Source of the DNA: Tribonema minus
Lineage: Eukaryota; Sar; Xanthophyceae; Tribonematales; Tribonemataceae
Length of the DNA stretch: 64,000 nt
Reading direction: 5' to 3'
Assembly: GCA_017506865.1 (NCBI GenBank)
Contig: JAFCMP010000007.1
Span: 186,001-250,000 of the forward strand
The position numbers and the translations under genes are program-made. Shown piece after piece: positions 5,439-64,000 of the stretch. Below the pieces are notes generated by a model. It made no database searches. It was given only the letters and a program-made list of their open reading frames with translations, and was not told where the DNA came from. Position 1 is the stretch's first letter, and each line of letters starts with the position of its first letter.

Positions 5439-5558
5439 TGCCCTACCTCTCTCCCTCTTTTCTCTTTCTCTCGTTCACATAATTATTTATAAAATTAAGA
5501 GAGTTCAAGTCGCAACTTGAACTTCTTACAACTTGAACTTCACCAGTAATTGAAAAAA
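5439..5558. promoter_or_regulatory. Putative bidirectional promoter, ankyrin gene / TLS1
   Basis: Only 120 bp separate the two divergent start codons. The segment is C/T-rich near the ankyrin start, then A/T-rich ('aattatttataaaattaa' around 5480-5497). It ends in three AACTTCAA/TTGAAGTT-type motifs just before the TLS1 ATG. Promoter function is inferred from position. Confidence 0.5.
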
Positions 5559-8500
5559 ATGTCCAGCGAAGGCGGAGTGGAGGTCCCTGCAGGCGCAGAA
5601 GATGTCCCTGTGCGCTTCAAAAAGAAGAAGGCAGCCGCCAGGAAGGGCGTGATCCGGAGAGCACCAGGTGACAAAATCACATCGAAGTGGATTTTCGAAG
5701 TGCCCGTCATCCGTTGAGCAGATGCGCTAGCTGCTGTTCTTTGCTATTGTATACTGAAAAGTGGACTTACTGCATTGGCTATGCCTGCGCTGCACCTTTG
5801 TGTCAGGTGCACATTTAGCATCGGCAGGAGTAAGTAGGTGCACAGCAAGCTTCGACAGGAAGCTATGCACTTGTGAATTCAACTTGCAAGCGGCTATTGC
5901 ATGTTTCAACACGTGAGAGTTGACTCGAGTTGCTGCAGATGGTTCGAGGGACAGCAATGGCGATGATGAAAACTCCGTCTCGCAGGCATCGCTGACAAAT
6001 CCGTAGCATGAGAAGCAGCGATTATCTCGGTGTGCGTGTGTATTGGGCTGTGCTCACCGGTCAATGGCCAGGTGTGCGTGCCGTTCAAGACCTGGCTGTC
6101 AGCAGCTTGCTCACATACCTGACCTTAGGAGCAACTGCTACCTCTGCCGCTGTGGCAGTTGCAAAAAAGCTTGGGAACTCACCTGGGGGCAATGCGCGTC
6201 AGCTGTCAGCGTTTCCTCGCTTCTCCAGCCGCAACCGTTTGGGGCATTCCCTTTGGCCACAATGACACTGACATAAGAAGAATTTTATCACGCTGCGCAT
6301 CGATGTGCCACCTCATCAGCAGGGGTTTTCGACAAATTCATGTATTTTTTAGCTGGTGCTCAGCAACTTCCAACGAAGCTTATGCAGTTCTAGCACCATC
6401 TTTGAGGACAAAGAAGGAGTTTGCTGCTGAAAAGAGCACCTGCAACAAACTTTGACAACACAGTTGAACCCACGTAAGCCGCGCTGGTTTTGTGAATGCA
6501 TAGATGGCTGCTGATGCCACCCTCAAAGCCCAGCGGACAGCCGCTCATTGTGCCCGCGCATTGCTTTCTTTACGGCTCACCTATGCCCCCCCCCTACTGC
6601 AGCACCTCCTGCTACTCAATACCCCAGCAGTTAATCTAGAAGTTCATCTTCACAAGCCATCTTTGCAGGGGGCGAGCGGCGCTTTGCCTGTGCCCCCGCC
6701 CGCGCGCTAGCACCTGCTGCTCCACAACTGCCAGCCAATTATCTTTCTTCACATGCCATCTTCGCAGGGGGCGCAAGCGATGCTTCGCCTGTGCTCCCCC
6801 CCCACTGTAGCACCTCCTGCTACATACTCAACAGCCAGCAGCTATATCTACCTTCACAGGCCATCTCCCTGCTACACAGCAGCCAGCAACTAATCCAAAA
6901 CTGCACATGCCATCTCCGCAGGGGGCGCCAGCGACGGCGAAGCGGACGGCGACGACGGCAGCGCCTCTGTGACAGTGCTCGCCGATCTGCGGGAGGAGCA
7001 GGAGGCGAGACGGCGCGCGCGCGGTCGCGGCACCGCCTCCGTCATCGTCTCTAATAAGCCCAAACAAGAGGCAAATCCGCTGGTGATACGGGGCGCGGGG
7101 GTGGACAATGAGGGGGCGCCCGAGGGGGGGGGCGCTCCCACGGGGGCGAGCGGCGTGGGGGGTCAGTCCCTCCTGCAGATGATCGACAGCCAGTTCAAGA
7201 GCGGGGGGGAGGCGGCGGGGGGGGGCATGCCCCACGAGAAGCTGATGGAGTCGTACATCGAGGAGAAACTGGGGCTGAAGGCGGGGGGGGAGGCGGAGGC
7301 TGGGGGGGGAAGAAGCTGACGGAGGAGGACGCGCTGTATGTTATACCGGATGAGATGAAGCGCACGGTGCATGAGGCAAAGGCCATGTTCGGCACGTTCA
7401 AGGCTGATGACCTGGATGGGGAGATTGGGCAGGGGGCACAGGTGAGGGGGGTCATTGCAGCCGTTGGCATTTGCGCATACGTGTTATGTGGTGTGTTTTG
7501 TTCATGTGTGATATTACTATTGTAGGTGTAGGGCATGTGATAGGACATTGCCAGCGGCGTGCACACCCGGAGGTTTGGTGGAAATGGCACACATGGATGC
7601 TGGTCGCAGAGGACCGGCAGGGGGGGGTGTAGGGGGTTGAGCAATGTCACACCTTGCTCAGCCTGTGCGACCTTGAGGGGTATTTAAACTAAGTAAAATC
7701 AATGAGAGTCTGCAGGACTTCAGGTAACCCTAACCCTTACCCTAACCCTAACCCTAACCGTAACCCTAAGGGGCTCTCTCGCCTTGAGCACACATAAAGT
7801 ACTGTCCATCACTATCACTCAACAGTGAAGCCATATTCTTTGCTTGAAGCACACCACACCCAAGGATGTACTGCATGCACCAATTTCGAAGCAAGCGCGT
7901 TCAATTGCCACTTTTTGGTAAGAAGTCATATGCTTGATACCTGACTGATGCATAGCATTGCGAGCACCGCATCTGTAAGGGGCGTAAGCAGAACTTGATC
8001 ACGTTGGGCCTTGTGTGGCTGCAATAGAGTCAGAGCGCCCCTATCTGCAGCCCTCTTCATGGCATGCGCTTGGCGAGTCATGATTCGTCGTGATTCACAA
8101 GTCAACTTCAAGTTCAAGAGTGGTGGACAGTTCTTACGGAAGGCAGGTGACGCTATACGGGGAAGGCATTCAGCCTCCCAATTAAGGCCGGTCGAGCACT
8201 AGCTATGCCACTTCAGGATCCATGAACAACGGTTGAACCCTGGTCCCACAGTAGATCAGTATTTGCGCCCTCGAAAACAAAGTTTCACTGAGGTTCAGAC
8301 GGGGCGCTGTCACTGCAAGAGTGGCACAACTTGTCGGCTGTGCAAAAGCTGCAGGCGCAGAGACTCAGTATTGCAAGCACGTACAGTGCAGTGCAAGACG
8401 GGGCAGCGGCAATGTAGCTCAACGGCTTCGACATCACCAACCCGGCCATGGATGGCAACTGCGTCTATAGCGCGTTGAGTCAGCGCACGTGGCTAGCACG

Positions 8501-9856: not shown

Positions 9857-9887
<31 letters not shown>

Positions 9888-11623: not shown

Positions 11624-14600
11624 TCAGCGGTAGCGGCGCAGCGACAGCGTGTTGCGCTTCTTCCAGGCGGCGGAGTGGGAGCCGCCGATGATGTTGTTGG
11701 CGCGGTGGCCCTTCTTGCGCAGGCCGCGCGAGGTGCGGCCGGCGCTGGTGAGGCCGCGGCACTCGCGGTGCTTCATGACGGGCTTGGCGATCCAGTTGAT
11801 GCGCGAGTCGTTGCGGATGGCCTTGTGCTGGGGGTCCACCAGGATGACCTGGGGAGGTGGGGGGGGGGGGGGGGGAGGGGGGTCATTAGGGGTGTGGGGG
11901 GTGGGGGTTGATCGCATTAGTGGCTTCAACGTGAATTGTCACTATGAAAGCGAAGCAAATAATAATTGGCCTTGTGCTGGGGTCCACCAGCATGACCTGT
12001 GAGAGGGGGGGGGGGGGGGGAGGGGGGGGGGTTCAGTGCGTAAGAGGCTTCGACAAGAACTTCCACTTCAAGAGGGGGGTCATTGAAGAAGCTTCGATGT
12101 AAGCTTTCGCTTCAAGAGAGACGTGTTGCAAAGGCAAAGACTGAGCTTTGCAACAGTGCAGTTGGCCTTGTCCACCACGATGACCTGGGGGGGGGGGGAT
12201 GGGGAGGGGGACATGAGGGGTCATCTCGTAATATGTATACATCGCGGCCTGGTTCACCCAGTACGAAAGTGGTCATTTGGCCTCGGCAAAGCGTTCCATC
12301 TTGGTACTCCAGAAAAGCATACATCACAGTCAAAGTCACTCACCTCGTAATACTTGTACGTTGCGTCCTGGTTGACCCAGTACGAGTTGAGCACGCATGT
12401 CGCTGCGCAATTGGCGCCCGCAAGCTAATAATTTGTAAACATGTTCATGTGATGCAAACACAAAAAAGACCATTCGGCGTTGGAATACTTCGAAGTATGT
12501 AATCATGCATTATGCGACTGTAGATGCTCACCTCGTAATACTTGTACGTCGCGTCCTGGTTCACCCAGTAGGAGTTGAGCACGCGCATGTTGGCGCACTT
12601 GGCACCCGCACGCTCCTCAGCCACGGACCGCAGAGAGCGCACAAACTTTAACTGCGTGATACCCTGGTTCTTGGGCTTTCCGTACACAATGCCCTTGTAG
12701 TTGGGGCGCTTGCGGCCACCGCGGCGGACCGCCACGCGGAACACCGAGTACCCCTGCAATTCATGAATGTGAATTCACAGCGGTGAAAGGGAGAGGACCA
12801 TTAGTGAGTGGAAGAAGCGTGAAATGGGGCTGCGGCGGACCGCCATGCGGAACACGGAGTACCCCTGCAATTCATGAATGTGAATTCACAGCGGTGAAAG
12901 GGGGAGATTGTTCGTCATTTCAAGAAGGAATGTGCATGGAGCAAGACAGTTGACCGCGGCGACCGCCACGCGGAACACGGAGTAGTAGTTACCGCTGCAA
13001 TTCATAGATGTGAATTCACGGTGGTGAAAAAGGAGAGGTGAACCACTAATGAGTGGAAAATGTGTGAAATGGGACCGCGGCAGACCGCCTTGCGGACCAC
13101 AGAATACACCTGAAATTCATAAATGTGGCGTTACAGAGGTGAAACAGGGTAGGTTGTTAAAATGCATGTGGAACAGGACAGGTCGACCATAAATGAATGA
13201 ACGACTTTGAGCTGGGGACAGTGTAATGCTGTGTCAGAGTATATGTGATGTTGAAGCGGGCATGCATGCGGCCAACAACCGGGCCGCCACATTCACGTTC
13301 ATTCAGCGCACCCCTGTTCATGATCGTGAAGCTAAGCATAAATGATCAGGCAGGTAAATGATAAACTCATCACCACGCATGGTAGAGCTCTGCTCTGGTA
13401 GAGGTCTTATCAGAGATACGACAGTCAACAGAGTCAGGATCACAATGAAACATGTAAACGCAGAGCATTGTGGTCGTGATGGCTGTGCGTCGTAAGTTTG
13501 TTTCATCATTAACATCACGTGACTGCTGCGTGATCCACTACTTGCCGCTCTTGTTAAAGAAAATGACCACGGTCAGCAGCTGGCACGACAAACATTGTCG
13601 TAATGAGGGTGGTAAAGTTTTCCATCATTAGGCCGCGTAGCTTGGGAAATGCCTGCCCTGAGCAACATGCAGATGCGCCTTTTTGCCGTGTGTGAAGGCC
13701 ATTGTTGCCTTGTCAGCAGCAAATCACCTTCTCAGGCCGTCTATGGAAGGGATCAATACCGCCTTGAAAACAATCAGGCGGCCGCCGCTACGGGCCTGCA
13801 CTTTTCAGACATCAGCAGTTCTGAGCCTTGTTGTGTTCCAAGGGCCCTTGCCTCATCGTGTCACTTTTTTTGGTCCATATAAAAGCGTACTCAATTGTGA
13901 CAACAAAATGTCTCGAGTGTGCTAGTGAAACTAGCAAAGTATGTCGCCACATCGGTACTAGCAGCTGCATAGCGAGCCACATCAACATTTCACCCATTAC
14001 ACCAAAGGCTCGCATTCATGCAGAGGCCACGTCCGATTGTGCTGCATTGTGACTGCCCTCGGATTTTGCGACTGCTAGGTGCGCATTGCTGCCATCGCTG
14101 CCATCACGTGCTGAACGATGTTGGCATGGCTTCCCGCAGGCCTGCTCGCGTGCAATGTGCTTGCTTGATTGCTGACATAAATGCCCACTACATCATAAGA
14201 CCAGGTCTGACTATGACCAGTCAATGCTGCACAGCAGCTGCTTTTCATGGGTCATAAGGTTGCTGGACAAACAAAAGGCGACTGATCGTGCATGCATATA
14301 CGAAAATCATCCACATTGCCTCATTCATGTTGCGCGTGCAGAGGTGCACAGCCCGGTGGGACACTGCATACAACCAGATGATGACTTCTGGTGTGCGACC
14401 CGAGCTGCTTCATGAGCTCTGATGACTCGCCACTTGCTGAGCACTGAGAAGCAGTTGCTCACTGAGCACCACGCACCCATCATATATGCTTACAGCGCGC
14501 TCAACACGCATGTTCATGCGTTTTGACGTGCCTGATGGTAGTATTGTGCATCTGGCGCCGTGTATAGGTGCTGTGCCCAATGGCTGGCTTCGACTGGGCA

Positions 14601-15195: not shown

Positions 15196-15304
15196 GATCG
15201 CCAGCCCCGCTTACAGCCCACACAGTGAGAGGTCAACGCCATCAGATCGAACTACAACTTTGAAGTTGTTCGTGCAAAAAAAAGAAAAGAAGGGGCGAAT
15301 CGCA
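15196..15304. promoter_or_regulatory. Putative bidirectional promoter, eL15 / plastid membrane protein
   Basis: Only 109 bp separate the two divergent ATGs. The segment contains 'caactttgaagttgttc' at about 15254-15270 and an A/G-rich run near 15276-15292. Shared promoter use is inferred from geometry only. Confidence 0.5.
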
Positions 15305-23741: not shown

Positions 23742-29045
<5,304 letters not shown>

Positions 29046-29298
29046 GTTCTGGTTTCTCTCCTCCTACTGTTGCCGCTTGCACCGAGCAAACTAGTGCCAC
29101 TGACACAAGCTGGATGTCTATTGTGTGTGGGATAGAGCTGAAATCACAATTGCTTATCGCTGAATGTAGTGAGTGGATAGAGGCAGCCAGCAATTAAAGC
29201 GGGACTACAGTTATTATGCCAGGAGCTCGGCGTTACCCGGTGACTCGCCGAGTCTTGAAGTTTAAAGTTGAGGTTTCGAGCTCAGATCCATCCACACA
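29046..29298. promoter_or_regulatory. Putative bidirectional promoter, NDR kinase / POP4
   Basis: 253 bp lie between divergent start codons. The POP4 side contains 'cttgaagtttaaagttgagg' at about 29253-29273, a variant of the recurrent TTGAAGTT motif. Function is inferred from position. Confidence 0.45.
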
Positions 29299-38300: not shown

Positions 38301-40252
38301 CAAAATGATTCCTCAAGCACAAGGGCCTAATGATACTTCGATAGCTCAACCTGCATGCTTTACATTGGGAAACACGTGTAGCATCGAGCATACCAGCATA
38401 TGCGGAAATCTGAGAGCTAGTCCACAGGGTGCCCCACTTCGCAAGCCACAGTAGTGCCATGTGGCACACCATTTGTGAATGGTACACCACCCACAACATA
38501 CTTCACCACACAGGGCATGCAGCAGACCGTACATACATACCTCGGATGCGTCTTGTTGATGAGATCCTGTGAACCCATCCAGCATCAAGTTCACCAGCAC
38601 CAGCACCATATACATGACACATGATATACTTCGGAACACAGGATATGATATGCAGCAAACCGTACGTACATACCTCGGGTGCGTCTTGTTGATGAGATCG
38701 TGCTGCGCGTAGGTGAACCCATCCAGCATCAAGTTCACAACATACTTCACCACACAGGTATGCAGCACACCATACATACATACCTCGGGTGCGTCTTGTT
38801 GATGAGGTCCTGCTGGTCATTAGTGAACCCATCCAACATCAAGTTCACCAGCACCAGCACCATATACATGATACATGATATACTTCGGAACACAGGATAT
38901 GATATGCGGCAAACCGTACATACATACCTCGGGTGCATGTTGTTGATGAGATCGTGCTGCGCGTTGGTGAACCCATCCAAAATCAAGTTCACAACATACT
39001 TCAACACACAGGGTATGCAGCACACCGTACATACATACCTCGGGTGCGTCTTGTTGATGAGGTCCTGCTGAGCGTTGGTGAACCCATCCAACATCAGGTT
39101 CACCAGCACCAGCCCCAGTCCCAGCGCCTCCATCAGCGCCCCCCTCTCCACCTCCGCATGCTTCCCGTGCCCCCCGCCCCCCGGCTTGTAGGAGAACAGC
39201 GCAACCCCCGCAGTGATGAGGCCCACAGAGAGGTACTCTGCGCGCGTGTACCGCTTGCCGCTCACTAGAAACCCCATCACCATCACCGGAACCAGCTTGC
39301 AGGACTTGGCCAGCAGCAGCAGGGGGTAGTTGATGTACGCCAGGGAAGCGTCTGTGGAGCGTGCGTGGGGGGGGGAGGGGGCACGGCAGTGCTCAGCTGT
39401 CAGTGAAAATAAGCGGCGCTGGGGTGCATGGTAGCAGCAGGGGTGGCGATTGTAGAGGGAGAGAGGAATGTGTCCTGACCGCCATGTGCGGCGGTGCGCA
39501 GCAAGGTACTGGCTTCAACAGCTGCTGCGCTGTACTGCGGTGTGCGCGTGCGCGCCGGCCAGCAAGACAATGCGATACATCAACTCTTGTTCTAGTTGAC
39601 TTGCGGCAGTGACGCCGTCTGAGGCAGCAGGAGGAGTAAAGCACACAATGGCCATATACACATCCAGGGAAGCAGCTCTGCGCTGTGGGTTATCAAAATG
39701 TGCCAGAGTCACCAATACCCGGTACAAACTGAAATATGTAGCAGGAAACAAGCATCACACTTTGCAGACGACTGCTTTTTCTATGCTGAACAGGATTATC
39801 CACGGCTCAGGTAGGTGTTGTGAGTCAAAGGGCGCTTCCGCTGACATATATTATGTAACTCATACAACGGCGCTTGAGGAGAAACGTCCACAGCGTACTT
39901 CAAAATATACAGGTGCAGTCACAGTTCTAACACAGCACAAGCGACACGTGGCGTTGTCAAGTCACTCACAGCCAAAGGGGCTCGCCAGCGTGTTCGACAG
40001 GGCGGGCTTCCAGAAGTGGGAGAGCGGCGGTCTAGTGGGCTGGCTCATTGCTTTGACCATGGCGAAGCCCGTGATGAACGCCGCCACTGTCATCAACAAG
40101 TTGAGGAAGAATGGGTAATCCCATTTGCCTATGCTTCCATCTGCTGCTTCGTACTTGACGCTGGTGATTCGCTCCTGGAGATACCCCCAGTAGAGGAAGC
40201 TGCCGTAGATGCCGCTGACCGCAAAAGTCAGTTTCAGGCGAGGCGACACCAT
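35349..40252 (-). CDS. SLC35B1: SLC35B1-like nucleotide-sugar transporter of the ER
   Basis: Exons on the minus strand are 40252-39970, 39351-39039, 37385-37196, 36360-36331 and 35603-35349 (phases 1,2,0,0), giving 356 aa. Features in order: an N-terminal TM with GSFLYWGYLQERI; SLAYINYPLLLLAKSCKLVPV and GKRYTRAEYLSVGLITAGV (the conserved SLC35B core); NLMLDGFTNAQQD; SSFYMMYRVN; the 10-codon microexon FIFWIIKEW; then NVTVTITRKFFSILLSVALF and WWQWVGIVSVFAGL. The protein ends in KKLN, a C-terminal dilysine (KKXX) ER-retrieval signal. SLC35B1 relatives exchange UDP-sugars or ATP/ADP across the ER membrane (family knowledge), and the substrate here cannot be read from sequence. Intron 2 contains a striking ghost donor array. 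Confidence 0.93.
37020..37195 (-). repeat. Minisatellite in SLC35B1 intron 3
   Basis: The intron downstream of exon 3 begins with imperfect repeats built from 'ttcatacctaccctgcctgc' and shorter variants, directly abutting the donor at 37195. Confidence 0.8.
38520..39110 (-). repeat. Ghost donor array, SLC35B1 exon 2 (four copies)
   Basis: The last 30-70 bp of exon 2 plus the donor (read on plus as 'acatacctcgggtgcgtctt' then 'gttgatgag') recur at about 38534, 38669, 38781 and 38925, ahead of the real donor at 39038. Two intron spacer types alternate ('acaggatatgatatgc' and 'acacaggtatgcagcacac'), so the array also has an about 250 bp higher-order period. All copies keep the AG|GTATGT donor. 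Confidence 0.95.
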
Positions 40253-44152: not shown

Positions 44153-47100
44153 CTAGGCGTACAGCTTGCGCGTGTACGAGTGCAGGTCGTGAACGCCGCC
44201 CTCCTTCTGCGCGCTGGCGGAGCGGATCTCAAAGCGCACGCGGCCGTCGCGCACGTCGGCGTGGCACGCGCTGAGCGCTGACACGCCCAGGTCCTGGTAG
44301 CCGTGCCGCACGGACTGCACCATGTAGGGCATGAACCTGCAGATGGGGGGGGGGGGATCGGTGAGGTGAGAGTGCCATTGGTATAGGCGGCAGATGGCAG
44401 GAAAGGAGAGGGGGGGGGATATGTGGGGTGAGAGTGACGTTGGTAGAGGTGGAGCGCGTGCAGTGAGGCACGCGTGAGCAACTACTAGTGGTCTGTAGTA
44501 CTAGTAGTGATGCAATCTGAACGCAAACACGCGTCATTGTGATGCTTGCCGACAAGGGGTATGTAGTGTCCCTGCCGCACCGATGGCGGAGCTAATTGAT
44601 TGAAATGTCGTACTTCGAAGTGCGACTTCGGCAGCAGGGCCACTGGAACATGCCAGGCGCGCCGCAATACCAAGTACTACCTCTGCCGCATGCACGAGTG
44701 CACTTGCAGAGTTCAAGTGAGTGCGCCATGTGGCGCAACAGCCGCCCCCCTGCGCTCAGCAGCCGCAACGGTTTGACTCGTGCGTCAACATTGCCGCGCC
44801 GCTCGCGCCGCACGCAAAACACTTACTTGAAGTGGCACGGCTATTCAGCTGGACTGCCAGTTAGACTGCACAGATGCGCCACTGCCCTGCACTATGTAGC
44901 TCACAACACTGTTGTAGGAGTAGAAGATATGGCGCAGCATTACTGTCCGCTGACTATTCATCCAGGAAGCGGCCTACTTCTGCAACTCCCGCTCACAATA
45001 CTACTGATTGTTTGTGCATTTGAAAAACACGTTTTAGGAGTTCATCCTGACCTGTGCAGGGAACCTCGGTCCACAACGAGGCCGCTGACGCCGCTAGCCG
45101 TGTAGGCAGTGCTCATACTGCCCCCGGGAGCATCGCTGCGCTGCTGCGCCTGATACGAGGTGGTGGCCTGGTAGTGCTTTAACCGCACGCCGTCCTGCAA
45201 TTAGGGGGGTTGTGGGTCCCAGAAGTGAGCGTATCGTGGGCTTTTGTCGACAACAGTACTTGCAGAATGCTCTATGCGCATGTGAACGGTTGCCACAAAT
45301 GTAATAAGCGCATGCCTTGATATGGTGCTCCTCGCACCGTTGTCACTTGGTGCAGTCAATGGCGTCCTCACCAACGCAGCAGCACACGAGGATAGGTGGT
45401 TACTGACAGCGCACACCTTAATGGGCCATATTGATGCATACAAAAAGGCACATGAACTGCATGTACATCAATGATCCTCAATCACTGCATTCCGTCTTCC
45501 GGCGTAGACGACTTTAATGGTCTGTCGGCTGCAACCACTCAGTGTCCACATGTACTTTGAATTCTGAAGTATTGTATCCCACGCGGGGCTGTGGAAGTTA
45601 TCATCTCAAAGGTCGTCTATGAAAGATCTCTGATGACAGATCTCTAATCAATACTCTTTTAATTAAAACTTATTTGAATACTACCCAAGGATTAAGCATA
45701 CGAGCTCTTGCGTCCTGACAGCACTTAGCCTAACCTAACCCTACCCCTGAGCACGCGCCACATACTGGGCACCCAAAACTTCATTTCCCAACCGGCACAG
45801 TACATCACCCACATGTGCTTGCGAACACGCTTTTGCGTCCTGACAGCGCCGGATGCAAACGCACAAAACCTGAGCACTCATTCATTACCCAAAACTTCAA
45901 TGCCCAACTTGAAGTACGCACCTGGTAGAAGTACGCCCCCGGCGCCTCCTCTGTCGCCGCAAGCATGCCCCCCATCATGACGACGCTGGCGCCCAGCGAT
46001 AGCGCCTTGGTCGCACAGCCCGTGTTCATGATGCCACCGTCGGCAATGACAGGCACGCCGCGCTCCGCAGCGAGCTTGCTGACGTAGTACACGGCGCTGA
46101 TCTGAGCTCTGCCCACCGCTCGGACCTGCAGTGTAGGTAGGTATGGTGTGTGGAATCACGCAGTGGGGTGGGGGGTGGGGGGTGGGGGCAATGAGGGATA
46201 AACTTCAAGTTTGGGATGAGGACTGCTCGACATTGATAGGGGTACGTGAATAACAACAGAAACGAGGTAATGATGCAAAACATGAAGTAGTTTTGGGTGG
46301 CACGAAGAGGCACTTGCAGCCACAACGGGTGCGGCCATCTCGCATGCTGAGCAGCTGACACGCTGCCAGGTAGGTATGTGTTAACATATGCATCTTTGTA
46401 CATGAAGACTCTGCAGTGATTTAGGCAAGCACGTGCACCAAATTATAAGAAGGTTCTTCGGCATGACAACAACAGTACGCGCACCATCAAAAGGAGGTGT
46501 CTGCACCTGCTGAGCAGTTGACACCCTGCCAGGTATGCACGCATGTGCTGCACCAATAATCGTACGCATAGGGTGCCTAACTAGCATCTAACATGCACTT
46601 GGTGTATGCGAACACCGTGCAGTAAGACAGGTGAGCATGTGCACAACAACGTGAAGGAGGTCACCCAGTAGATTTGGCGACAACAGCATGTAGCCCTAAC
46701 CCTAACCCTAACCATTCGCTACAAACAGTAAAGCACACACGGTAACTAAAATTGTCTTCACCTGCTGCGTAGTTGACACGCTGCCAGCCCCCATGCCCAC
46801 CCTGAGGGCGTCTGCTCCCGCATCGAGCAGCACACGCGCCTGCGCGCACGTTACCACGTTGCCCGCCACCACCTCCACCTCCGGGTGCTTCCGCTTTACG
46901 TATTTGATTTGCTCCACCTGATGAGGGTGTTTGGGGGGTTGAAGGGGGGGGGGGGTTCAGTGCCTGCATGTCAAGTGCAGGGGTCTGTGGCTTGTTTGAG
47001 GCGAGCACATATGAGCACCTTACATGTGTAAAGGGCTCACTACCATATCTGGTGCCGCTGAGCGTGCATGTGTGTGATGTGGGATGTGTTTGTGTTGTGT

Positions 47101-49749
47101 GAGCCAACAACTTCAACTTCAATACAGAGCACGTCACACGGCGCTCAGCGCACGTCACCTGAGCGGAGGTGGAGCCGTTGCGCTTCAACAACTTCAACTT
47201 CAATACAGCGCACACAGCGCTCAACGCTCCCAAAACTTCAACTTCAGCACAGATCACGTCGCCGCAGCGCTCAAGTCAGTTCATGTTACCTGAGCTGAGG
47301 TGGAGTCGTTTTTTGCAGGCACATTGAGCTGCAAACAGTTTTCACGGTCCACCACTTGTGAACCACCACACTACATTGCTCAAAGTGCCGTCACTTCAGC
47401 ACACTTCACCTCACATGCACACACTTCAACTTCAACGTCAGCGCAGCAGGTTGCCGCAGCGGGCTCAACGCACGTCACCTGAGCGGAGGTGGAGCCGTTT
47501 CGCTCGTCTATCACCAGCACATCAACGCCGGCAGCAGCCAGCGCGTCAAATCTATCCAACAAATTTAACTTCAACTTCAATACAGCGTCACACAGCGCTC
47601 AACGCTCGTTACCTGAGCGGACGTTGAGCCGTTTCGCTCATCTATCACCAGCACGTCAACGCCGGCAGCGGCGAGCGCGTCAATGCGCGCCCTGTCCTCA
47701 ACACACGCCAGTACCGCCGCGCCGCAGCGCAGCGTGTTGGATTCAGCGTCCTTGGTGGAGTAGGGGAAGTCACGTGACTTCAACAAGTCTGTGCGCGTGG
47801 TGAGGGAGACCAGGTTGCCGGCATCGTCGACCTGGAAGGGGGGCAAATGATGAAAAGGGGGGCGTACAATGAGCCAAGTTGGCAATGTCCTGGCTTCCCT
47901 GATTTCAGTGTGCTTGTCTCTAATGGTGGGAACGGAGCGCGCAGGATGTTTGCGATTGGTGTGTCAGTTAGCGCAGTCGCTCCGATGTCATAGCACTGCC
48001 ATCATTGGCACAGGATCGAATGACGGTGGCGTTGTGTGCAAGACAGATCGGGCAGCTTGGCAGTTCGCTAGCGCAATTGCGTGTGGAAGTACGACGACAC
48101 AGGGCCTCCGTTCACACAGGTCGAAAACACTACGCACTCGTGACTAATCGAAGGTAAGCAGTGCTAGGTAGCGTCACCCCTATTATGAAACATGAAGCCT
48201 GTGCATGCATGCTGAATCTGGGGAGAGCGAGAACGCTCGTACTCTACAAAAGCAGTGCGTGGGCAGATTTATCGTTTGATGTGATGAGATGTAATGATTC
48301 ATTACTGAATGACGCTTGCAATGGGAAATACAAGATATGCCACTCTATTCGGACAGCTTTTTATTGGAAATAGGTGGGCTGTTGGTGCAACCCCAGGTCT
48401 GGGATTTTTGTTCATGCTGGACCAAACTGCAGCACTTTCGCATTCGCCACTGCAGTACCGCTGCAATGAACTCACATAATGCGTACCCAAATAAGCGGTG
48501 GCTCATGGACCTCAAATGGGCACTCTGGCATAGATTAAGGGGTATGCATTGACTGCTGCTTGCGTGTCTGGAATGTCGTACATGTTTGGCGCAGATGTGT
48601 TGCTGACTGTAACATGCACTTGCTTCGAAAAGCAATTGCAGCCATTGGTCCTGCAAGAATTGTGATCCGGCAGGTAATAATCTCACTGGTGCGAAAGGCA
48701 CGAACGAATTTCGGTTTGTCACAGAGTTGCACGTTGGCGCGGTTCTGCTGACGCATAGGCCTTAGTGCTCCTGGTGTGGCAACAAAACAGCAGCACGTGC
48801 CTGCCAGCACATCACGCTCAGCAGCGACGAAACATGCATGCTGCGCACTCCTGCTCACTTACGATCGGCAGGTAGCCCTTCTTGCACTCCTTGAGCAGGT
48901 TCTGCGCCGCCTCCAGCGATATGCCCTTGCTGCCCACAATGAGGCTGTCCGCGGGCGTCATGTACGTGCTGAGCGATGCTGTCCTGTCCTCCACCAGGTC
49001 CGTGTCCCGCTTAGTGATGAGTCCCACCAGCCGTGACCCCATCTTTCCGTCCTCCGTTATCGGCACCCCCGAGATGTTGCGCTCGGCTTTTAGCGCGTCG
49101 AGCGCTGACACCAGCGCGTCGGGGCTCATCACGGCGGGCTCCGTGATGAAGCCGTTCTCGTAGGACTTGACCTTCTTGACGAGGCCCACTTGCTGCTCCA
49201 CGGAGCAGTGGCAGTGGATGAAGCCGATGCAGCCCTCGAGGGCCATGGCGATGGCCATCTTGGACTCCGTGACGGTGTCCATGGGGCTGGAGGCGAAGGG
49301 GAAGGCGAGCTTGATGTTGCGGGTGAGCCGCGTATTGAGTTCCACCTGCGCATGGCGACAGATTCCACAGCGGCGGCAGCACGAGAATTTAGAGTGCTGT
49401 GGTGCAACCTCGTACAATAAGGTTGAGTCTCCACAAGCGAGAGCTGAGAATGTTTGCAAAGCTCAGTGCTGCTGCTGCAGAGGCTTATGTGCATGGGCGG
49501 GTGCCTCGAAATGCGTGGGAAACATCGATTTCAACCTGGTTGAAGTGCAATTGAGATGCCTTTTTTGCTGACCTGCTCGACGCCGAAGTCAATCTGTCCA
49601 GGTAGTGCGATCATGTCGTCGAATGTAAATCCTCTCGAGCCAGGAGTGCCGAACACCTCTTCCGCGCTGTAGCCGTCTACCAAGTCGGCCTCGGTCACCG
49701 AGACGCCGCCGTGAGAGTACTCTTGGGGTGCCATTGTTGCCGGTGCCAC
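44153..49749 (-). CDS. IMP dehydrogenase homologue lacking catalytic residues
   Basis: Exons on the minus strand are 49749-49573, 49345-48863, 47831-47613, 46917-46762, 46125-45922, 45194-45052 and 44336-44153, closing in frame at 521 aa (typical IMPDH about 514). The fold is fully represented: [24 protein letters not shown], two CBS motifs (about 115-240), [21 protein letters not shown], and the C-terminal [11 protein letters not shown] and [16 protein letters not shown]. The invariant catalytic Cys of the GSxCxT loop is Ser341 (codon [10 protein letters not shown]). The flap does not contain the Arg-Tyr dyad expected before GVSG (here [11 protein letters not shown]), and the NAD-site DSS is DER. 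Normal IMPDH makes XMP from IMP. This copy is probably inactive as such and may be regulatory or a filament partner (inference). It is divergent from the MFS gene. Confidence 0.9.
46330..46560 (-). repeat. Ghost donor copies, IMPDH-homologue exon 4
   Basis: Two degraded copies of the exon 4 end (real: 'cacctgctgcgtagttgaca', 46759 on) lie at about 46340-46370 ('gctgagcagctgacacgctg') and 46500-46535 ('cacctgctgagcagttgaca'). Both keep the TCA Ser codon of the altered active-site loop. Confidence 0.75.
46691..46712. repeat. Interstitial telomere-like (CCCTAA)n
   Basis: Three and a half CCCTAA units in intron 4 of the IMPDH homologue. Confidence 0.85.
47095..47660 (-). repeat. Ghost donor array, IMPDH-homologue exon 3
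   Basis: The real exon 3 end (matching 'acctgagcggacgttgagcc') is followed by copies at about 47475-47545 (about 80 bp, near identical), 47288-47315 and 47155-47190. Between them are at least five 'caacttcaacttcaatacag'-type strings. The copies keep the CTCAG|GT junction. Confidence 0.9.
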
Positions 49750-50025: not shown

Positions 50026-53000
50026 ATGGGAGGTGGGCTAGACGGAGCGCTCACCCCCACAAATGCTAGCAATACTACTCGCTCCATCATGGACTTGACC
50101 ACCCCTCCTCGCGCCAACCGGCACACTGTGGACGTGGATAGAAGCCTCAAGCAATCGTCCTTCGTCGTTTTCCTGTATCTATTGAGCGTGGGAGTCATGG
50201 TGAGTTGTGCTTTGCTGCTGATTTTCAAGCAGAATCGTATCACACACCATGGTACGCTGCAAGAATAAAGTGGCATGTTATTATTTGTAGGGAGTTTCAC
50301 ACCCGCACTGGCTTCAGCCTTGAATAAAGCTTCACAGTGACAGCACGTGCGAGAGACGAGAGACGTCGTGATATACTGTTGTTTGGGGGAGCTGACTGAC
50401 GTCAGTTGCGGCTGCACAGCTCATTGCACCATCACACCAAGTACTGCACTATTTACATCCCACCCTTCAGCTGGTACATGTGAGTTCTGAATTGCAAACC
50501 TGGAGTTGAAGGTGTTGCAGAGAGCTGCGAACGTCAATCATCAACGATGTACATCGGGGCAAGCACGCGCCTATCGACGACATCAACAGCTCCTGCATGA
50601 GGCTATGGCTTTGATGTTAAGCAGCGCTCAATACCAGACGATTGCAGGCATGTCAATGCTGCCGTTGACCTAGTTATCAGCCGCAGCAGCTCAGCTGTGT
50701 CAGGTGCCAAGTTATTACGCATGATGGGTGACGGTACACTTCAGTCTGTTGAGCAGACTACGGTCCCGCCGTTGGTTGGGTTGAGGTAGCACCCGCACAC
50801 TTTAATTGCAAGTCGTTGCAGCCAGGATCGACTTTCACAGACCTGATCGGTGCAGAGGTTGGACATGGAGCGAGGAAAGCAAGCACGCAAAGCGCAAAGA
50901 GCAATTGCTGCACATTTCTGGGCCTGTTGCGGCTGACGAGACCTTTTCTCCAGGAAATTCAAGGCAAAGAATGCGCTTTGGCGCTCAATTTGTAGAGTCA
51001 GCACTTTTGTACCAGGATTCAACAAAGCAAAGCTGGGATGACGCTGCTTCATGTTGTCAGCCTTGGTGGCATCATGGTGCGTTGGCCAAGTGAATAACTT
51101 CAAGTGGTATGGCCCGCACCCAGCCTAACCCTAACCCTAACCCTAACCTATCCTGATCTAGCACCAACACTGTTGCTGCGAGCTGCAACAGTGGCGGCTG
51201 CTCATCGGACGGTGCACACAAATCTGCCAACTTCATGCTGCTGATGCAAAAGTCGGAGGACCGCGCCGCCGCAAGTTGACGTTTCGTACTTCAAAGCTCA
51301 AGTGTTGACTCTCCGCTGCGCACTCACCCGCGCGCGCAGATCCCCATCTTCCCCACGCTGCTGATGCAGGAGTCGGAGGACCGCGCCGTCACAAATTCAT
51401 TTTTGCACTTCATTGGCACTTCAAACCTCGACCGTTGCCTCTTCGCTGCTGAATCATCCGTGCAGATCCCCATCTTCCCCACGCTGCTGATGCAAGAGTC
51501 GGAGGACCGCGCCGTCGCAAGTTCGTCTTTGCACCTCACTTGCACATCAAACCTCAAATGTTGACTCTCCCCAGCGCACTCATCCATGCACACAGATCCC
51601 CTTCTGCCCCACGCTGCTGATGCAACAATTGGAGGTCCGTGCCGTAGCAAGTTCACTAATTCTTTGTTGAAAGTTTAAATGTGGACTCTCCGCTGCGATC
51701 CCACGCGTGCAGATCCCCATCTTCCCCACGCTGCTGATGCAAGAGTCGGAAGACCGCGCAGTCGCGAGCGTGCAGAACGGCTACATGACAGTGGGCAAGT
51801 GCGCGCTGGAGTTCTTCGTCATGCCGGTCGTCGGCGCGTGCAGCGACCACGTAGGCCGCAAGCCGCTGCTGCTGTTCTCTGCGGCGGTGGCGCTGGCGGA
51901 GTATCTGGCCATGGCGGTGTCGCCGACGCTGCCGGTGATATTCGTCACGCGCGTGCTGGGCGGCATGACGAACGGCATCACCACCATGATTTTCGCCGCC
52001 ATCAGCGACGTGAGCAAGAAGTCCGACGAGGCCAACGTCGCGAATGTGAGTACTGCGTAGTACACCTCGTGGACTGTGTATTCTGTGATGGTCATCACCA
52101 TCATGACGTTTTCGCCGCCATCAGCGACGTGAGCAAGAAGTCCAACGAGGCCAACGTCGCCATATGAGTACAGTGTAGTACACCTTGTGGACTATGTGTA
52201 CTCTGTGAGCTTGCCGGTCATCAACGATGTGGTTGAGAGGTCTCACATACAAGGCCAACGTCGCAAATGTGAGTACAGCGCAGTACACCTCGTGGACTGC
52301 CTGACGACCAAGGTCGTTTTGTAGCAATCAGGTATGCACTTAACAAGGAAGTTCAACGAGGCAGGTCCAAAGTGCAACGAGCGGCCGTCGCGGCCGTCGC
52401 GAATGTCAGTACCGCAAACTGATTCAATATCGTGTCAACGCTCTGGTGACCATTCTGCTTGCAACGAACTGCATGACTCCAAGAAAACCCAGGCAGCAAT
52501 GACGCGACTATGATAATAGTGATCCCTACCCCTAACCCTACGTGGCCTGCGCTGCTGTGCACTGTCATAATTCAACAGGCCCCATGATTTCGATGCGTTG
52601 TCATGAGCGCAAGTATCGCAGCCCACTACATTAATCTTAATGCGATGCGGTACGTATCGTACATCACACCACAACAGCCATGACGTCTGAGGCGAAATCA
52701 TTTGAGTCTGCCAGTGCGACGACTGCTTGCGCACCGATTCGCAACGCTCGTCGAGGAGGCTAATGAGCTGGTTTTGCTTGAGTCATATCATGCACTGTCC
52801 TTTACAGTGCCTCTAGATTCGGTATGTGTGTGTCTGGTCAACCAGTTTGTATCCCCTGATATGTCTAGGCCTGAGCACTGTCCCTGGGGTTAGGGTTGGT
52901 GGTAGGGCTGGGACCAGGCTGAGGAGTAGGTTTACACAAGCACCACTGTAATGCTCCGGTTCAACAGCCTGCCGCACAACCATGTAACACTCACGCCGTT

Positions 53001-56000
53001 TATGCTCTCTTGCGCCGTTAATGGTCTCTTTTGCAGAACATGGGGCTGGTAGGTGCTGCATTTGGCGTGGCGTTCATCATCGGGCCGCTGGTGAGTGCTC
53101 GCCTGGCTTGAAGTTGGCACTTGAAGTAGGACATCACGTGTGTGTGTGCGCACATTGCATGACAGACACGACAGCTGATGGACTACATAATTATGTGGCA
53201 TCAAAATGTCGTAGGATGGAAGTAGTAGGCTATTTACTACCAACAACATGCCTGACTGATGGTTGGTTGACACAAGTGTGCTTGAAGGTCTACATGAACG
53301 GAAACTAAGCCCAATCGATTGACAATTTTCACTTTTTGGCCACCCTAGGCACAGCAAAAGAGTACAGCACGGAGGCTTCCCACGTGGTCCCCCACCGTAG
53401 TACTAGCTCCGCTCAAGAGGGCTTAACTTCAGCGATCGGACGAGAGCTGGTGCTGTCACCATGATATGGCCGTACCCACATGCAAGGTGGTTGCAGCAAA
53501 TGTGGCCCTCCTTGTGCACAGTGTGTGGGGGGAACCAGATGCTATGCTAGTGGCACAGTCACACATGCTCGTCAGGCAGGCGCGGCGGCCTTGGCGTGTT
53601 CAACTCTCATTTGCCAATTGTCATTTTGCTGATGGCTTGCAGGAGTTCAACTTCTATGTGCCGCATCCGCGCCCCGTGCTGCTGGTGGCGTCCGACAAGC
53701 CAATCTGGTGCTTGTCAGCGCAATGCGTCACTCGAAGTCTCTCATTCGCTCACGCAATCACCCACGCACTCATACGCCATGCGCGCACGAGTCATTGTGA
53801 ATGACTCCATAACTCACTTACATGCCAGGTCGTCAGCGCGCTCGGCATGCGGCGCTGCTGACTCACTCAATCACACACTTACTCACTCACTCACTCACCT
53901 GCTGCGCATCGCCGCGCCAGGTTGGCTGCAGTCATTGCATGATCCACTACTCGCTGCCGTGTTGGGGCATCGGCGGTGCTCATTGACTCAATCACTCATT
54001 ACTCACTCACTCACTCACTCACGCACATGCCAGGTCGGCGGCGGTCTTGCCATGAATTAATCCTTGCTATCATGCTGGGCGTCGGCGGCGCAGATTGACC
54101 CAATCACTCACTCACTTACTCACTCACGCGCATGCCAGGTCGGCGGCGGTTTCGGCATGATCCACTACTCGCTGCCGTGTTGGGCTTCGGCAGTGCTGAG
54201 TGACTCAATCACTCACTCACTTACTCACTCACGCGCACGGCAGGTCGGCGGCGGTCTCGGCATGATCCATTACTCGCTGCCATGCTGGGCATCAGCAATG
54301 CTCATGGCGGCGGACGTAGTGTTCCTGCACTATGTGTGGCAGGAAACGCTGCCGACAGAACAGCGCACCAGCTTTGACATCAAGAACGCCAGCCCGCTGC
54401 CCGCGCTGCGCATATTCGTAGAGGCGAGTACAGGCTGTGCTGATGGGTACCATTGTACTCGAGAGTCTGACTCGTATTCTGAATGATTCTCTATGTGAAG
54501 TCTGTTGTTAGAGTACATGACATGTACGATGGGGGCTTTGACATCAAGAATGACAGCCCGCTGCCCGCGCTGCGCATTCGTAGAGGCGAGTATGAGCCGT
54601 GCTGCCGGGTACTACTATAATGAAAACGAATCAAAAGATCGTAGAGCTATATACTCTAGAACGAGACTCGCATCTTGAAATACTCTCTATGTAGAGTCTG
54701 GTGTTGGAGTACTACATGCACTATGGGGGCTTTGACATCAAGCGCGCAAGTTCGCTGCCTGCGCTGCGCATACTTGTAGAGGCGAGTGTGGCATCGCGCA
54801 TACTGCTCCGTGCGTACATTGCTAGTTTGATGCATACTTCAATGTACCATAGTCTTATAAATAGTATTATTACTCTGCATATACAGCACAATGTGCACAA
54901 TGTGGCCTATTTTCAAGAAGCAGGTGGAACATGCAACATATTTCAAGTGACATGCTAGACATGCTTAAAAGGCTCACTTTTTGAGTATACACATATGAAG
55001 CATGAGTGCGAACATATTGCGAGCACAGGCAAGGAACAGCAGATACACAAGTCCATGAGCTTGTTTGCTTTGAAGTGGACTGCACTGCCACATGCACAGC
55101 GACTTGCAGTTGAAGCTGAAACATGCAATATTTTGAACAAGCTGTCGCGACACTGCGTGCGGTTGTGGTTCAAGTTGCAATTGTCAATTGTGAACATGGG
55201 GCGTGCGGCATTGTGTGCCCAACTGCGTGCGTCACATGTCACTGTATTGCTTAGCAGAATGGTGCCGGACTGGCCTTTCTGGATCTGTTTTCGATGCCTG
55301 CAGAAACGCTCACAGTATGCGTGATTGACAAGCCGCTTCAGTGAACTCAATCATGACTGCACCGTTGCTCGTGTTGTTGAGCAGAAGCCAAATCTGGCCA
55401 GCTTACTGCCGGCGGTCATTTTCATCTACATGGCGTCTGGCAGCGTATTTACGTGGTGAGTGCATACGTACATACGGTATACGTACCCCATTGCGTTGAC
55501 GTAGAGCATCAGCAGTGATGATGCAGAACCCTGTTCATAAAAGTCTTGGGTTCTCAAAGGGGGTGGTGTCGTGGGGGGCTTGAATGCGTGTGCGTCAACC
55601 GACTATCAGGGGTACTTCTAAGGAGTGTATGGATTCTGGATGTTGCCAGCAGGGACTCTCTTCATGCCTGTGCAGGGATCCGCATGTCTGCAGTCATGGA
55701 GTGCGCTTGTGATAAGAACTCACTGCGTCTCGTGCGTTGTGATTTTAAGCTCTGTTGAGGCCCCATGCAGTTGCGCAAAAGCTGCAGCACCCACGTCTCC
55801 GCTGTTCACCACCCATGCGCAACTTCAAATTGAAGTTAGACCTGCCAGTTTTACGTACCCATTTGTCAGCCACCGCCTGTGGTTGTACTCAAGCACACGC
55901 CTGTTCCTACGCGCTTGGCGTCAACTTCAAATTGAGGTTAAACTTGACAGTTATGTACTCATTGTAAGCCACCAGCTGTGGTTGCACTCAAGCACACGCC

Positions 56001-61043: not shown

Positions 61044-61079
61044 GCACCCGCCCCCTCCCGCAGGCGCTGATGAGCCTCA

Positions 61080-62806
61080 TCAGGCATTAACGCCATCCGC
61101 TGCATCCGCCGCAGCCGCGGCGTTCATCGCCTGGAGCTCCTGCGCCAGCGCCGACGTCGTCATCTCGACGGGCCGCAACTGCTCCTGCTGCTGCTGCTGC
61201 TGCGGCGGCGGCGCGGCGTTGGCATTGCCGTGGAGCCCTGCGCCCGGCATGGGCATGGCGGCATGGCCAGGGTCCACTTGTTGCATCCTGCATGCGGCAC
61301 AGGTTAGAGTTAGGGTTAGGGGTGAGGGCTAGGGTAAGGGGCACATGAGCGCTAGGTTTCTCATCAACTGCATCACTGTGCTCTAGCCGTCGCAGGTGCC
61401 TGGCCAGTGCTGTGTATCAGTCTGATGGTGACGATTAGGGTTAGAGTTCAGCATTGCGCTGCACCTCACGATGCCACAAGTCTGGGCGCAAGTCTGCACT
61501 GCACATGACAACACACCTCACGGCGTAATGACGCGATACGATGACACTTTCGGCCAGGCTTTCAGCCCAAGACGCCGCCACCACTCCTGACCATAACGCC
61601 GCATTTTTGCGCGACTCATGAGTGCACAGGATGTGCACAAGCTCCCTTGTTGAGTGCTGTCTGAACTGAAGTAAGTCATAGGGCAGTGATGCAATGTTTC
61701 AGCAGGCATCGCTGAGGCATAGCACGGCAACTGCGCGGTCGCCTCGGTTCACCAAATTCACGTCATACAGAGCGCAAGCACATCTCAAATGCTGCGCAGA
61801 GCGCTGTTGCTGCGCATCGTGTGACATGTGCAAGCAGGTGACTCTCCTTGAGCGCTCTGTAGTTGCAGAGCGTATAAAGCGCAGATAGCACCCAGTTGAG
61901 CACTGTTCCGACTGCTCCTCTTGGCGGCTGCGTCTCGAATGGCATTGCTGAGCGCCGTGCCATTGTGCCACCGCGCACAGCAACTACTGCGTGTCTCATG
62001 AAACGCAACCAGGTTCCTCACCATATGCGCTTCTCGTACAGCGTCAACAAGTCACGCCCGAGCTTACCAACTTCAACTGCATCTTTTAAAGCGCAACCAG
62101 GTGACTCACCACATGCGCGTACAGCGCAAAGAGGTCACGCAAAAGCTCCCTGTTGAGCACTATGACTGCTCCATTTGGCAACTTTGTTTCAGTTGGCATC
62201 GCTGTGGCATCGGAACGCTACTGCGCCATAGCCCCAGCTCACTCACCGCAACTGCGTCTCGTAGAGTGCAACCAGGTGACTCGCCATATGCGCGTCTCAT
62301 AGAAAGCAAACAGGTCGACAACGAGCTCCCTGTTGAGCACTATGTATTATGCCTGCTCCACTTGGCGACTACGTTTCGCTTGGCATCGCTGTTGCATAGA
62401 GTCGCAACTGCGCCGCCGCCACAGCTCGCCAACTTCAACTGCGTCTAGTGCAACCAGGTGTCTGACCATATGCGCGACTTGAAGAGCGCAAGCAGGCAGC
62501 GCCCCACCTCATCAACTTCAACTGCATCTTGTTGAGCGCAAACCAGGTGACTCACCATATGCGCGTCTTGTAGAGCGCAAACAGGTCGCGCACGAGCTCC
62601 CTGAAGTCGATGCGCCCATCCGCCTGGAAGTAGAAGGTGAGCTTGTGCCTGTCGTACTGAAACTCCGCATCCATGACCTCCATGGGCAGGCCGCGCTGCA
62701 CCACCTTGGCGCGGCAGACCGCTAGGACCCTCTCCTCGTCGGCCATCTTCTCCTGCACAGCCGCCGCCGCAATGCGCGTGACAGAGCGGAAGAGTGGAAT
62801 GCGCAC
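61080..62806 (-). CDS. PSP1-domain protein, 3' part
   Basis: Minus-strand exons are about 62752-62556 (open to an ATG at 62806) and 61287-61080, joined in phase 2. The domain is well conserved: AVCRAKVVQRGLPMEVMDAEF, YDRHKLTFYFQADGRIDFR and ELVRDLFALYKTRIWMQQVD, typical of the PSP1 C-terminal domain (bacterial RicT/YaaT, trypanosomatid RBP38-type partners, fungal Psp1). The tail is Gln/Ala-rich and ends DGVNA. In other organisms PSP1 proteins act in RNA- or sporulation-related complexes (family knowledge). The domain normally has more sequence upstream. A ghost copy of the acceptor at about 62865-62915 argues that 62752 is an internal exon start, so the 5' part probably lies beyond 62920 or outside the window. 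Confidence 0.75.
61303..61340. repeat. Degenerate telomere-like tract
   Basis: TTAGGG-type units with substitutions lie just upstream (on minus) of the acceptor of the last PSP1 exon, supplying the pyrimidine-rich intron end. Confidence 0.8.
61770..62600 (-). repeat. Ghost donor array, PSP1 exon
   Basis: At least four decaying copies of the exon end plus donor (real: 'aaccaggtgactcaccatat' then 'gcgcgtcttgtagagcgcaa') occur at about 62010-62050, 62090-62150, 62258-62335 and 62450-62500. A fainter one sits at about 61780-61860. Spacer segments with 'ccctgttgagcactatg' and 'cttggcatcgctg' repeat with them. Confidence 0.9.
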
Positions 62807-64000
62807 AGCAAGATGTCAGCATTTGACACAAAAGTGAATTCATGGGATGAGGTGCCAGTGGTGCCACTGACTCTCCTCGTCCGCCGTCTTCCCGTGCGCC
62901 GCCACCGCCAAACGACAAGATGATTTGAGATGCACACTATAAAACGTAAAAATCAGGTCAACTGCCACCTGCACAAAAGAAGTGGATCGCTGCGACACAG
63001 CACAGAATGGAGCAACCGTATGAGATCTGCATCGCCTGCTAGAGCACTGACAGCATGTGGTGCCAGTGTGCTCTAGATAATTGTCCGTTCGCGAGCATCT
63101 GCTGCTGCGTACGCTGTTTCGATGCCTGTGCGGCAGTGGTGTGACTGTTTAGCGCGCATCCATACTTCAACTTCAACTGCAAGTTTAGGTTTCGTGTCTG
63201 TCAAAGCGTCCAGGGACTGACACAGTGCTATGCAACAGGGCAGCAGCAGTCCTTTCTATTGTGGTTGTGAGGTTTGGCAGTGTCAGTCCGCCGCAATATC
63301 TGGTTGAGATCTATCAAACGGGTCAAGAATGAGTCACACAACTAAAAGACCGTCAGCCAATGCTTTAAGAAAAATTCAATCGCATCTTGTATCCTCAGCC
63401 TGTAGACAGCGTGGCTAATACTGCATTTCCCCAGACCAGTTCCTGTGCATGCACGTAGATGCAGCGCACGCAATTCGCAAGCTTCAAATCTACACTTCAT
63501 ATCCCTGAGCTATGAGCCAAGACCCCGATTTAAACGGAAGTTGCCAAGGTGCCAAGGCACCCCGGACACCATCACAACTTGCTGTCAGCGCTGAGCACTG
63601 CCCACTTGCGATTGAAGTTGCGTTCTGGCTACCCTTCGATGGCTTCGTGACAAGGTTTCATAAAGTGAGGATTATGTGCCTCCATCCACAACAGATGGAT
63701 GCCTGACAACTGCTCAGCAATTCCCTCACCTGCATCCCTACTTGAGCGCGCACTTCGTTGCCTTATTGTCACCAACCTGGGCGCTGTCCGCTGCGTCCAC
63801 CAAAACACCAACTTCAACACTGACTTCAACAAAAGCCGACATTGTGTTGTACATGCATGCCCCCGTCACTCAAAGTGCTGAAATTCTTGCAAAAAACGAT
63901 GCAACAGCGCTTCCACTTCTCAGCATGCATATGCCTGGCGACCCTTCCGCTCCCCCGCCACTGCTGCCGCCACCACACCCTGCAACAGCCGCCATCCGCA
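62807..64000. other. Right end: intron or 5' region of PSP1 gene
   Basis: It holds the ghost acceptor copy at about 62865-62915 and motifs such as 'acttcaacttcaactgcaag' at about 63165-63184. No further PSP1 exon or other gene was recognised up to the window end. Confidence 0.45.

Follow-up and report, generated by a model that had tools for sequence, protein, structure and literature searches.

Introns of Tribonema minus contain tandem copies of adjoining exon ends, in arrays associated with splice junctions

The stretch of Tribonema minus DNA analysed here (the window; 64,000 nucleotides on contig C7 of a 158 Mb assembly in 554 contigs) carries several genes that had been named in a preliminary description made from the sequence. 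Pfam matches at the claimed positions confirmed the protein kinase, eL15, IMPDH, the UAA transporter (a family that we take to be the SLC35B1 family), the MFS protein and PSP1. For the exon called TLS1, the forward frames of positions 5501 to 8500 (all three) gave no Pfam match, and this name is that of the preliminary description only. A 5S was also found in the window. One light-harvesting protein best matches fucoxanthin chlorophyll a/c proteins and another matches LHCI, ACPI and CAC chains; ACPI and CAC are cryptophyte names. These matches to chlorophyll a/c types make a red-plastid alga the probable source.

The window is rich in direct repeats, with 43 rows from TRF and 54 self-BLAST alignments with a spacing below 3 kb. 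The preliminary description had reported at least eight genes in which an intron holds copies of the adjacent exon end together with its splice site, and we saw such copies in seven of the named ones (NDR, eL15, MFS, IMPDH, SLC35B1/UAA, PSP1 and TLS1). These arrays are as follows, with the basis of each in brackets; the common rule is a single alignment threshold described below the list.

6577..6934, forward strand: TLS1-called exon, acceptor-side copies upstream (self-alignment, sequence read)
11818..12224, reverse strand: eL15 last exon, two acceptor copies upstream, first exon base 11848 (self-alignment, sequence read, common rule)
12221..12614, reverse strand: eL15 middle exon, two donor copies downstream, first intron base 12531 (self-alignment, sequence read, common rule)
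12718..13158, reverse strand: eL15 middle exon, three acceptor copies upstream, first exon base 12753 (self-alignment, sequence read, common rule, Pfam PF00827)
24577..24910, reverse strand: NDR kinase, three donor copies, first intron base 24884 (self-alignment, sequence read, common rule)
25227..25847, reverse strand: NDR kinase, a single intron that holds both two donor copies, with first intron base 25799, and an acceptor copy, with first exon base 25254 (self-alignment, sequence read, common rule; paralogue compared)
26405..26628, reverse strand: NDR kinase, one donor copy, first intron base 26572, telomere-like filler between copies (self-alignment, sequence read, common rule)
26745..27127, reverse strand: NDR kinase, three acceptor copies, first exon base 26791 (self-alignment, sequence read, common rule)
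27434..27650, reverse strand: NDR kinase, one donor copy, first intron base 27575 (TRF, self-alignment, sequence read, common rule)
38483..39117, reverse strand: SLC35B1/UAA transporter, array on the donor side with the real donor near 39037; reading by eye gives about four copies, all with a GGTATGTA-type donor (TRF, self-alignment, sequence read, Pfam PF08449)
46340..46790, reverse strand: IMPDH, donor copies (two, both weak) over an approximate extent, first intron base 46761 (sequence read, common rule)
47104..47730, reverse strand: IMPDH, three donor copies, first intron base 47612 (self-alignment, sequence read, common rule, Pfam PF00478)
51197..51768, forward strand: MFS, four acceptor copies, first exon base 51713 (TRF, self-alignment, sequence read, common rule)
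51976..52299, forward strand: MFS, three donor copies, first intron base 52046 (TRF, self-alignment, sequence read, common rule)
61828..62603, reverse strand: donor-side array downstream of the PSP1 exon, real donor near 62555 (self-alignment, Pfam, sequence read)

The common rule was applied to NDR, eL15, IMPDH and MFS (18 junctions): a query of 60 exon and 20 intron bases was aligned locally with 1 kb of the intron side, and a score of at least 20 was required. Copies adjoin 13/18 junctions, 30 copies in total, and the same queries matched on the opposite side at 1/18 junctions and at 2/828 random 1-kb places. Since four genes yield this many under one rule, the earlier estimate of about 40 copies in eight genes is plausible, and its side rule, with acceptor copies upstream of the exon and donor copies downstream, is borne out. 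Copies occur at 6/7 of the NDR kinase junctions tested. In this gene an intron repeats the preceding exon end with its own GTGAG, and upstream of the following exon lie three decaying copies of that exon's start, with acceptors. The three eL15 junctions tested have three acceptor, two donor and two acceptor copies, respectively, and for IMPDH the common rule found no copies at 4/6 junctions.

Protein continuity suggests that the innermost sites are those used in splicing. For example, eL15 spliced at its inner sites aligns over its full length to plant eL15 and is gap-free at the inner junctions. In the genes outside the window, homology points to one long intron bounded by the inner sites. 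The real sites give the shortest exon and the longest intron in every gene read. This choice is what pairing of sites across the exon would be expected to select.

We then determined whether similar copies are found in other genes of the assembly. Exon positions were taken from family searches with kinases, CCT chaperonins, proteasome subunits and DEAD helicases, and 25 loci from the first three families were fetched, these being part of the family matches with several exons on one contig. Their 57 neighbouring exon pairs gave 45 introns with a GT-AG pair that keeps both frame and profile position (45/57); ten pairs were skipped because of a profile gap and two had no site pair. Two of the 45 introns (scores 3.2) were left out, so that 43 were kept. 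The gene set is not fully blind, as copy-like overlapping matches had been noticed before fetching in CCT loci C5, C51 and C135, of which C51 yielded no intron. In these CCT, proteasome and kinase genes outside the window, 22/43 introns contain such copies, hereafter ghosts: 60 ghosts overall, with donor ghosts in 15/43 introns and acceptor ghosts in 11/43. Swapped introns gave 8/3408 pairs with a match, other introns of the same gene 1/204, and shuffled introns no self-hits. A longer exon query raised the count to 66 ghosts, which lie in 32 junction arrays. No ghost reached the threshold in the remaining 21/43 introns, and this counts against the explanation that we favour below.

Longer introns hold more ghosts (Spearman 0.60, p 2e-5, 43 introns): ghosts were found in 0/10 introns below 360 bp, 6/10 of 360-600 bp, 5/11 of 600-900 bp and 11/12 of at least 900 bp. 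Such a correlation is as expected if ghosts make introns grow, but longer introns also offer more room for them.

Among 31 arrays examined in these genes, 12 lie on the donor side, 14 on the acceptor side, one touches both and four are inside introns; of the last, two start no more than 4 bases from the donor, and the end of another coincides with the acceptor. On the exon side, ghosts reach 13 to 90 bases, the upper value being the limit set by the query, and copies within an array often have a common exon-side edge, e.g., five at -68 to -74 in L032. Mean identity to the corresponding exon part is.87, and an indel separates ghost from exon in 53/66 cases. Identity at codon positions 1, 2 and 3 is.893,.888 and.829, as expected for a conserved exon compared with a drifting copy. 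Tandem exon duplication (mutually exclusive exons), in which a whole exon is copied with both sites and the frame is kept, was rejected on the basis of the one-sided copies in 26/31 arrays (one is both-sided) and the indels in 53/66 ghosts. Introner elements were rejected because only one between-gene match (E<=1e-4) was found among the 43 introns.

We also considered an assembly or sequencing artefact, to which we give next to no credence: most copies are 5-30% diverged from the exon and carry indels, a pattern unlike that of collapsed or stuttered reads, and arrays recur in 20/20 randomly placed loci on 10 contigs (see below). Rogers-type intron gain, by which each intron is created through tandem duplication of an AGGT-holding exon piece, has tandem duplication and exon-like intron sequence in common with our observations, according to the passages available from PMC4974935 and PMC2891723. 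However, of the crossed copies that belong to this model, the downstream exon start was found at the intron 5' end in 0/43 introns (control 0.0018) and the upstream exon end at the 3' end in 1/43 (control 0), compared with same-side copies in 10/43 and 11/43. We therefore regard this origin as highly improbable.

The splice dinucleotide is kept in 52/66 ghosts outside the window, and in 52/55 where the alignment covers the site. The earlier statement that AG or GT is usually kept thus holds outside the window, with GT present in 27/34 donor ghosts and AG in 25/32 acceptor ghosts (27/30 and 25/25 where the site is aligned). Many ghost donors also look usable as decoys, as had been proposed: by hand-set weights, 19/29 score no lower than the 10th percentile for real donors. 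Selection could in principle keep ghost sites because they serve as decoys or in alternative or recursive splicing. In its favour, GT at 27/30 and AG at 25/25 covered sites are somewhat above the surrounding identity of ~.82-.87, and 19/29 ghost donors fall within the real-donor range under those weights. This is suggestive only if uncovered sites are ignored; when these are counted as lost, the values (27/34 and 25/32) are about the drift expectation. The frequent indels, and the third codon positions that differ most, are likewise those of a drifting copy. Ghost spacing also differs between NDR paralogues, and we consider maintenance by selection very unlikely.

These paralogues bear on the age of the copies as well. 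NDR paralogues were found on contigs C147, C23, C435 and C174. The one on C147 matches the window gene at 81-92% identity in exons, and the exon-3 donor ghosts lie at +110 and +239 in the window gene and at +183 in the paralogue. The two genes differ at 26 intron columns. Here, the nearer of the window ghosts matches its own gene in 21 and the paralogue in 3, and its duplication therefore postdates the split of the two genes. Dating of the other two is weak: the second window ghost agrees with its own gene in 10 columns, with the paralogue in 6 and with neither in 10, and the ghost of the paralogue agrees with its own gene in 13, with the window gene in 9 and with neither in 4. Swap-type controls were clean in 16/18 cases. 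Homologous contigs C90 and C179 (3.3 kb, 96.6% identical), compared with a view to polymorphic arrays, contained no array, and their gaps of at least 8 bases were limited to one 19-base gap and one end gap.

The repeats (CCCTAA)n and (AACTTC)n are both over-represented in the window, and stand out to the eye in NDR, in IMPDH and in the NDR paralogue. As a mark of the duplication breakpoint, both the telomere-like and the AACTTC-type filler were rejected, since at the edges of the 66 ghosts neither is significantly enriched (4 occurrences compared with 2.4 expected, p 0.22; 8 compared with 4.7 expected, p 0.08).

The preliminary description had also stated that copies decay with distance from the real exon. 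This was not upheld, with 48 pairs for and 32 against, and seven arrays for, five against and one tied. Its broader proposal, that introns grow by tandem duplication across splice junctions, is partly supported: the copies are real, side-specific, tied to junctions, widespread and correlated with intron length (Spearman 0.60), but simple decay is not supported.

For a survey that avoids gene choice and hand-set borders, we used random loci, namely 20 segments of 10 kb at round positions on 10 contigs named by chance in a pattern search. Arrays were detected in 20/20 of these loci and in none of the Markov shuffles. Together with the ghosts in 22/43 introns elsewhere, this confirms the genome-wide spread that had been suggested. 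The array detector found 0/20 planted duplications of 45-75 bp and 6-7/20 of 90 bp (TRF finds shorter arrays), and all array counts therefore concern spacings of at least ~90 bp. The preliminary description gave periods of about 70-150 bp. Junction arrays listed by TRF in the window have periods of ~79 to 254 bp, and the median smallest spacing in the random loci is 168 bp, as measured with the detector that misses shorter periods. A minimum unit of 90 bp (nucleosome-like) was considered, there being none below 90 bp among 86 arrays, and was rejected given the planted control; because shorter units are missed, the spacing is unreadable as a nucleosome signature.

To assess the relationship between arrays and exon borders, we classified the edges of the 86 arrays in the random loci as coding or noncoding by codon usage (cross-validated AUC.964) rather than by mapped transcripts. 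Exactly one edge is coding in 52 arrays, none in 28 and both in 6. For unit-sized pieces with at most 90 coding bases placed at random, the corresponding fractions are.249,.709 and.042 (p 3e-12). Other thresholds agree (one coding edge in 52/86 vs.366, and in 41/86 vs.132). Of the 52 one-edge arrays, 31 read as donor-side and 21 as acceptor-side. Thus, the check that had been put forward, that repeats be commoner at junctions than at random positions, came out in favour (52/86 with one coding edge vs 25%). The same comparison led us to reject ordinary minisatellites or satellites placed independently of gene borders. The 28/86 arrays without a coding edge and the 6/86 with two count against a junction bias; in those without, the classifier may have overlooked a junction, or the array may be genuinely noncoding.

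In the genes outside the window, 27/31 arrays straddle a junction, although one of these (L041) is doubtful, being mostly an exonic self-match. Part of this excess could arise from tolerance only, that is, from an even duplication rate in which duplications inside exons are purged and, introns being short, the survivors touch a junction without any favoured site. Under even placement, the expected number of straddling arrays is 10.1 with present intron lengths, 16.6 with arrays collapsed and 21.6 with a fixed 250-bp intron (p 0.018), compared with the 27 observed. Thus, for a 250-bp ancestral intron this null comes close (21.6/31), and it is also in keeping with introns without ghosts often being short (0/10 with ghosts below 360 bp) and with the 28/86 random-locus arrays that have no coding edge. 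On the other hand, 10.1 and 16.6 fall well short of 27, and with up to 90 coding bases tolerated the null gives one coding edge in 25% of random-locus arrays compared with 60% observed, and in 23% of the most recent arrays compared with 70%. Among arrays with a best identity of at least 85%, 14/20 have one coding edge, compared with.23 expected (p 1e-5). Because these youngest arrays show the excess most, longer visibility of conserved exon parts is not its whole cause. Overall, tolerance accounts for part of the junction excess and not all of it, and as the full explanation we find it unlikely.

The explanation that we favour, and consider probably correct, is recurrent tandem duplication across exon-intron borders, tolerated through splicing at the innermost sites and more frequent at exon edges than would follow from tolerance alone. 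It has to account for arrays that are side-specific, tied to junctions, spread through the genome and retentive of splice sites, and whose ghost number correlates with intron length. A unit straddling the border (exon end plus splice site and neighbouring intron sequence; within the detectable range, mostly ~100-250 bp) would be duplicated in tandem, repeatedly. A copy in the intron would have no effect on the protein provided that splicing continues to use the innermost donor and innermost acceptor, and such duplications would pass selection because the mRNA made from these sites is unchanged. The copy would then turn into intron sequence and drift, and repeated events would build arrays and lengthen introns. 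Exon definition may be what lets the cell ignore the outer copies; two modes of splice-site recognition are described in the part of PMC3488318 available to us. Slippage, microhomology repair or unequal exchange could make the copies, and borders may be favoured for duplication itself, beyond tolerance. Within this explanation, intron growth is well supported; the targeting of borders is supported. Borders could be mutational hot spots in this lineage, at which transcription, splicing or chromatin drives short tandem duplications at a much higher rate than at other places, and the resulting splicing-linked or chromatin-linked intron growth would be passed by exon-defining splicing. We regard this last idea as possible but tentative.

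A named model of intron gain by tandem duplication exists, and the passages available describe several relatives of the arrays reported here. As in Rogers-type gain, local tandem duplication leaves exon-like intron sequence and an unchanged protein; in that model, however, a new intron arises from AGGT inside an exon, whereas here an existing intron receives same-side copies. An intron of potato RdRp originated by duplication across one intron-exon boundary (PMC4974935); the duplicated unit here also holds exon sequence, intron sequence and a splice site (27/31 arrays straddle, L041 being doubtful). The potato case, as described there, is a single event in a single gene that produced an additional intron with a cryptic donor, in contrast to multi-copy arrays on donor and acceptor sides in many genes. 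Drosophila cases of tandem-duplication intron gain are discussed in PMC2891723. Two fission-yeast cases resemble ours in that introns are built of several tandem copies of nearby exon sequence (PMC3629103), but, in the passages seen, they involve two genes and 24-bp exonic units with a cryptic site (size from PMC4974935), and no existing junction is straddled. GC-rich avian introns are likewise largely filled with tandem repeats; these are short, G-rich, G-quadruplex-capable motifs, and exon-end copying is not stated in the passages available (PMC6792250). Introner elements of Amoebophrya share large-scale intron change and repeats at exon borders, yet are described as families common to different genes (PMC7789003), unlike the single between-gene match among our 43 introns. 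In the full-text literature accessible to us, which includes few subscription journals and was seen in part, we found no description of repeated same-side exon-end copies as a feature of a whole genome. Its precedents are individual instances in which an intron was gained by tandem duplication.

The arrays matter for the biology of this alga in several ways. Transposons and general drift are the usual explanation for intron lengthening. In this genome, much of the added intron sequence can be traced directly to the neighbouring exon border, and the arrays form a dated record of growth events for each intron. They also provide naturally occurring decoy splice sites, which the cell has to pass over, and hence a test of exon versus intron definition in an alga, as well as a chance to ask whether DNA is preferentially duplicated at splice junctions.

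The window NDR gene, a protein kinase gene on the (-) strand with junction copies at most of the splice junctions tested, has relatives on other contigs of the same genome, located by sequence match:
C147, 9319-12639: NDR kinase relative
C23, 474172: NDR kinase relative
C435, 13961: NDR kinase relative
C174, 61638: NDR kinase relative
Compared with the window gene, all of them have similar exons and dissimilar introns. Among 43 introns kept from loci elsewhere in the genome, a single between-gene match was detected, in which 86 bases are shared at 78% identity by the intron at 1555 of locus L021 and that at 337 of locus L029, at an equal distance from the donor in both. Two further loci, L050 and L051, lie on homologous contigs (C90 and C179; 3.3 kb at 96.6% identity), which by sequence could be either haplotypes or a recent duplication.

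Two motifs are over-represented across the whole window, mostly in noncoding DNA: the telomere-like hexamer CCCTAA, with 24 occurrences where 4.7 are expected, and AACTTCAA, a motif of the AACTTC type, with 34 where 1.2 are expected. The edges of 66 ghosts (decaying copies of an exon end and its splice site within the adjoining intron) showed no significant enrichment of telomere-like hexamers or the AACTTC-type motif. Long C runs lie directly upstream of many acceptors (e.g., 12200 and 25300), and CCCCCCCC is the most frequent 8-mer across the 43 introns.

Other features of the window are:
53359-53477, (-) strand: 5S rRNA gene, the sole Rfam match in the whole window at the gathering threshold
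about 30411-30635 (within 28503-33500), (+) strand: ribonuclease P/MRP p29 domain, by domain match
32706-33686, (+) strand: open frame of 327 codons, expansin-like in appearance
4220-5169, (-) strand: 81-base in-frame repeat inside open frame 4155-5474, from repeat listing and self-alignment
The last appeared ankyrin-like, judged by eye only. Since this repeat is in frame, the open frame probably encodes a repeat protein rather than representing a junction array (tandem copies straddling an exon-intron border).
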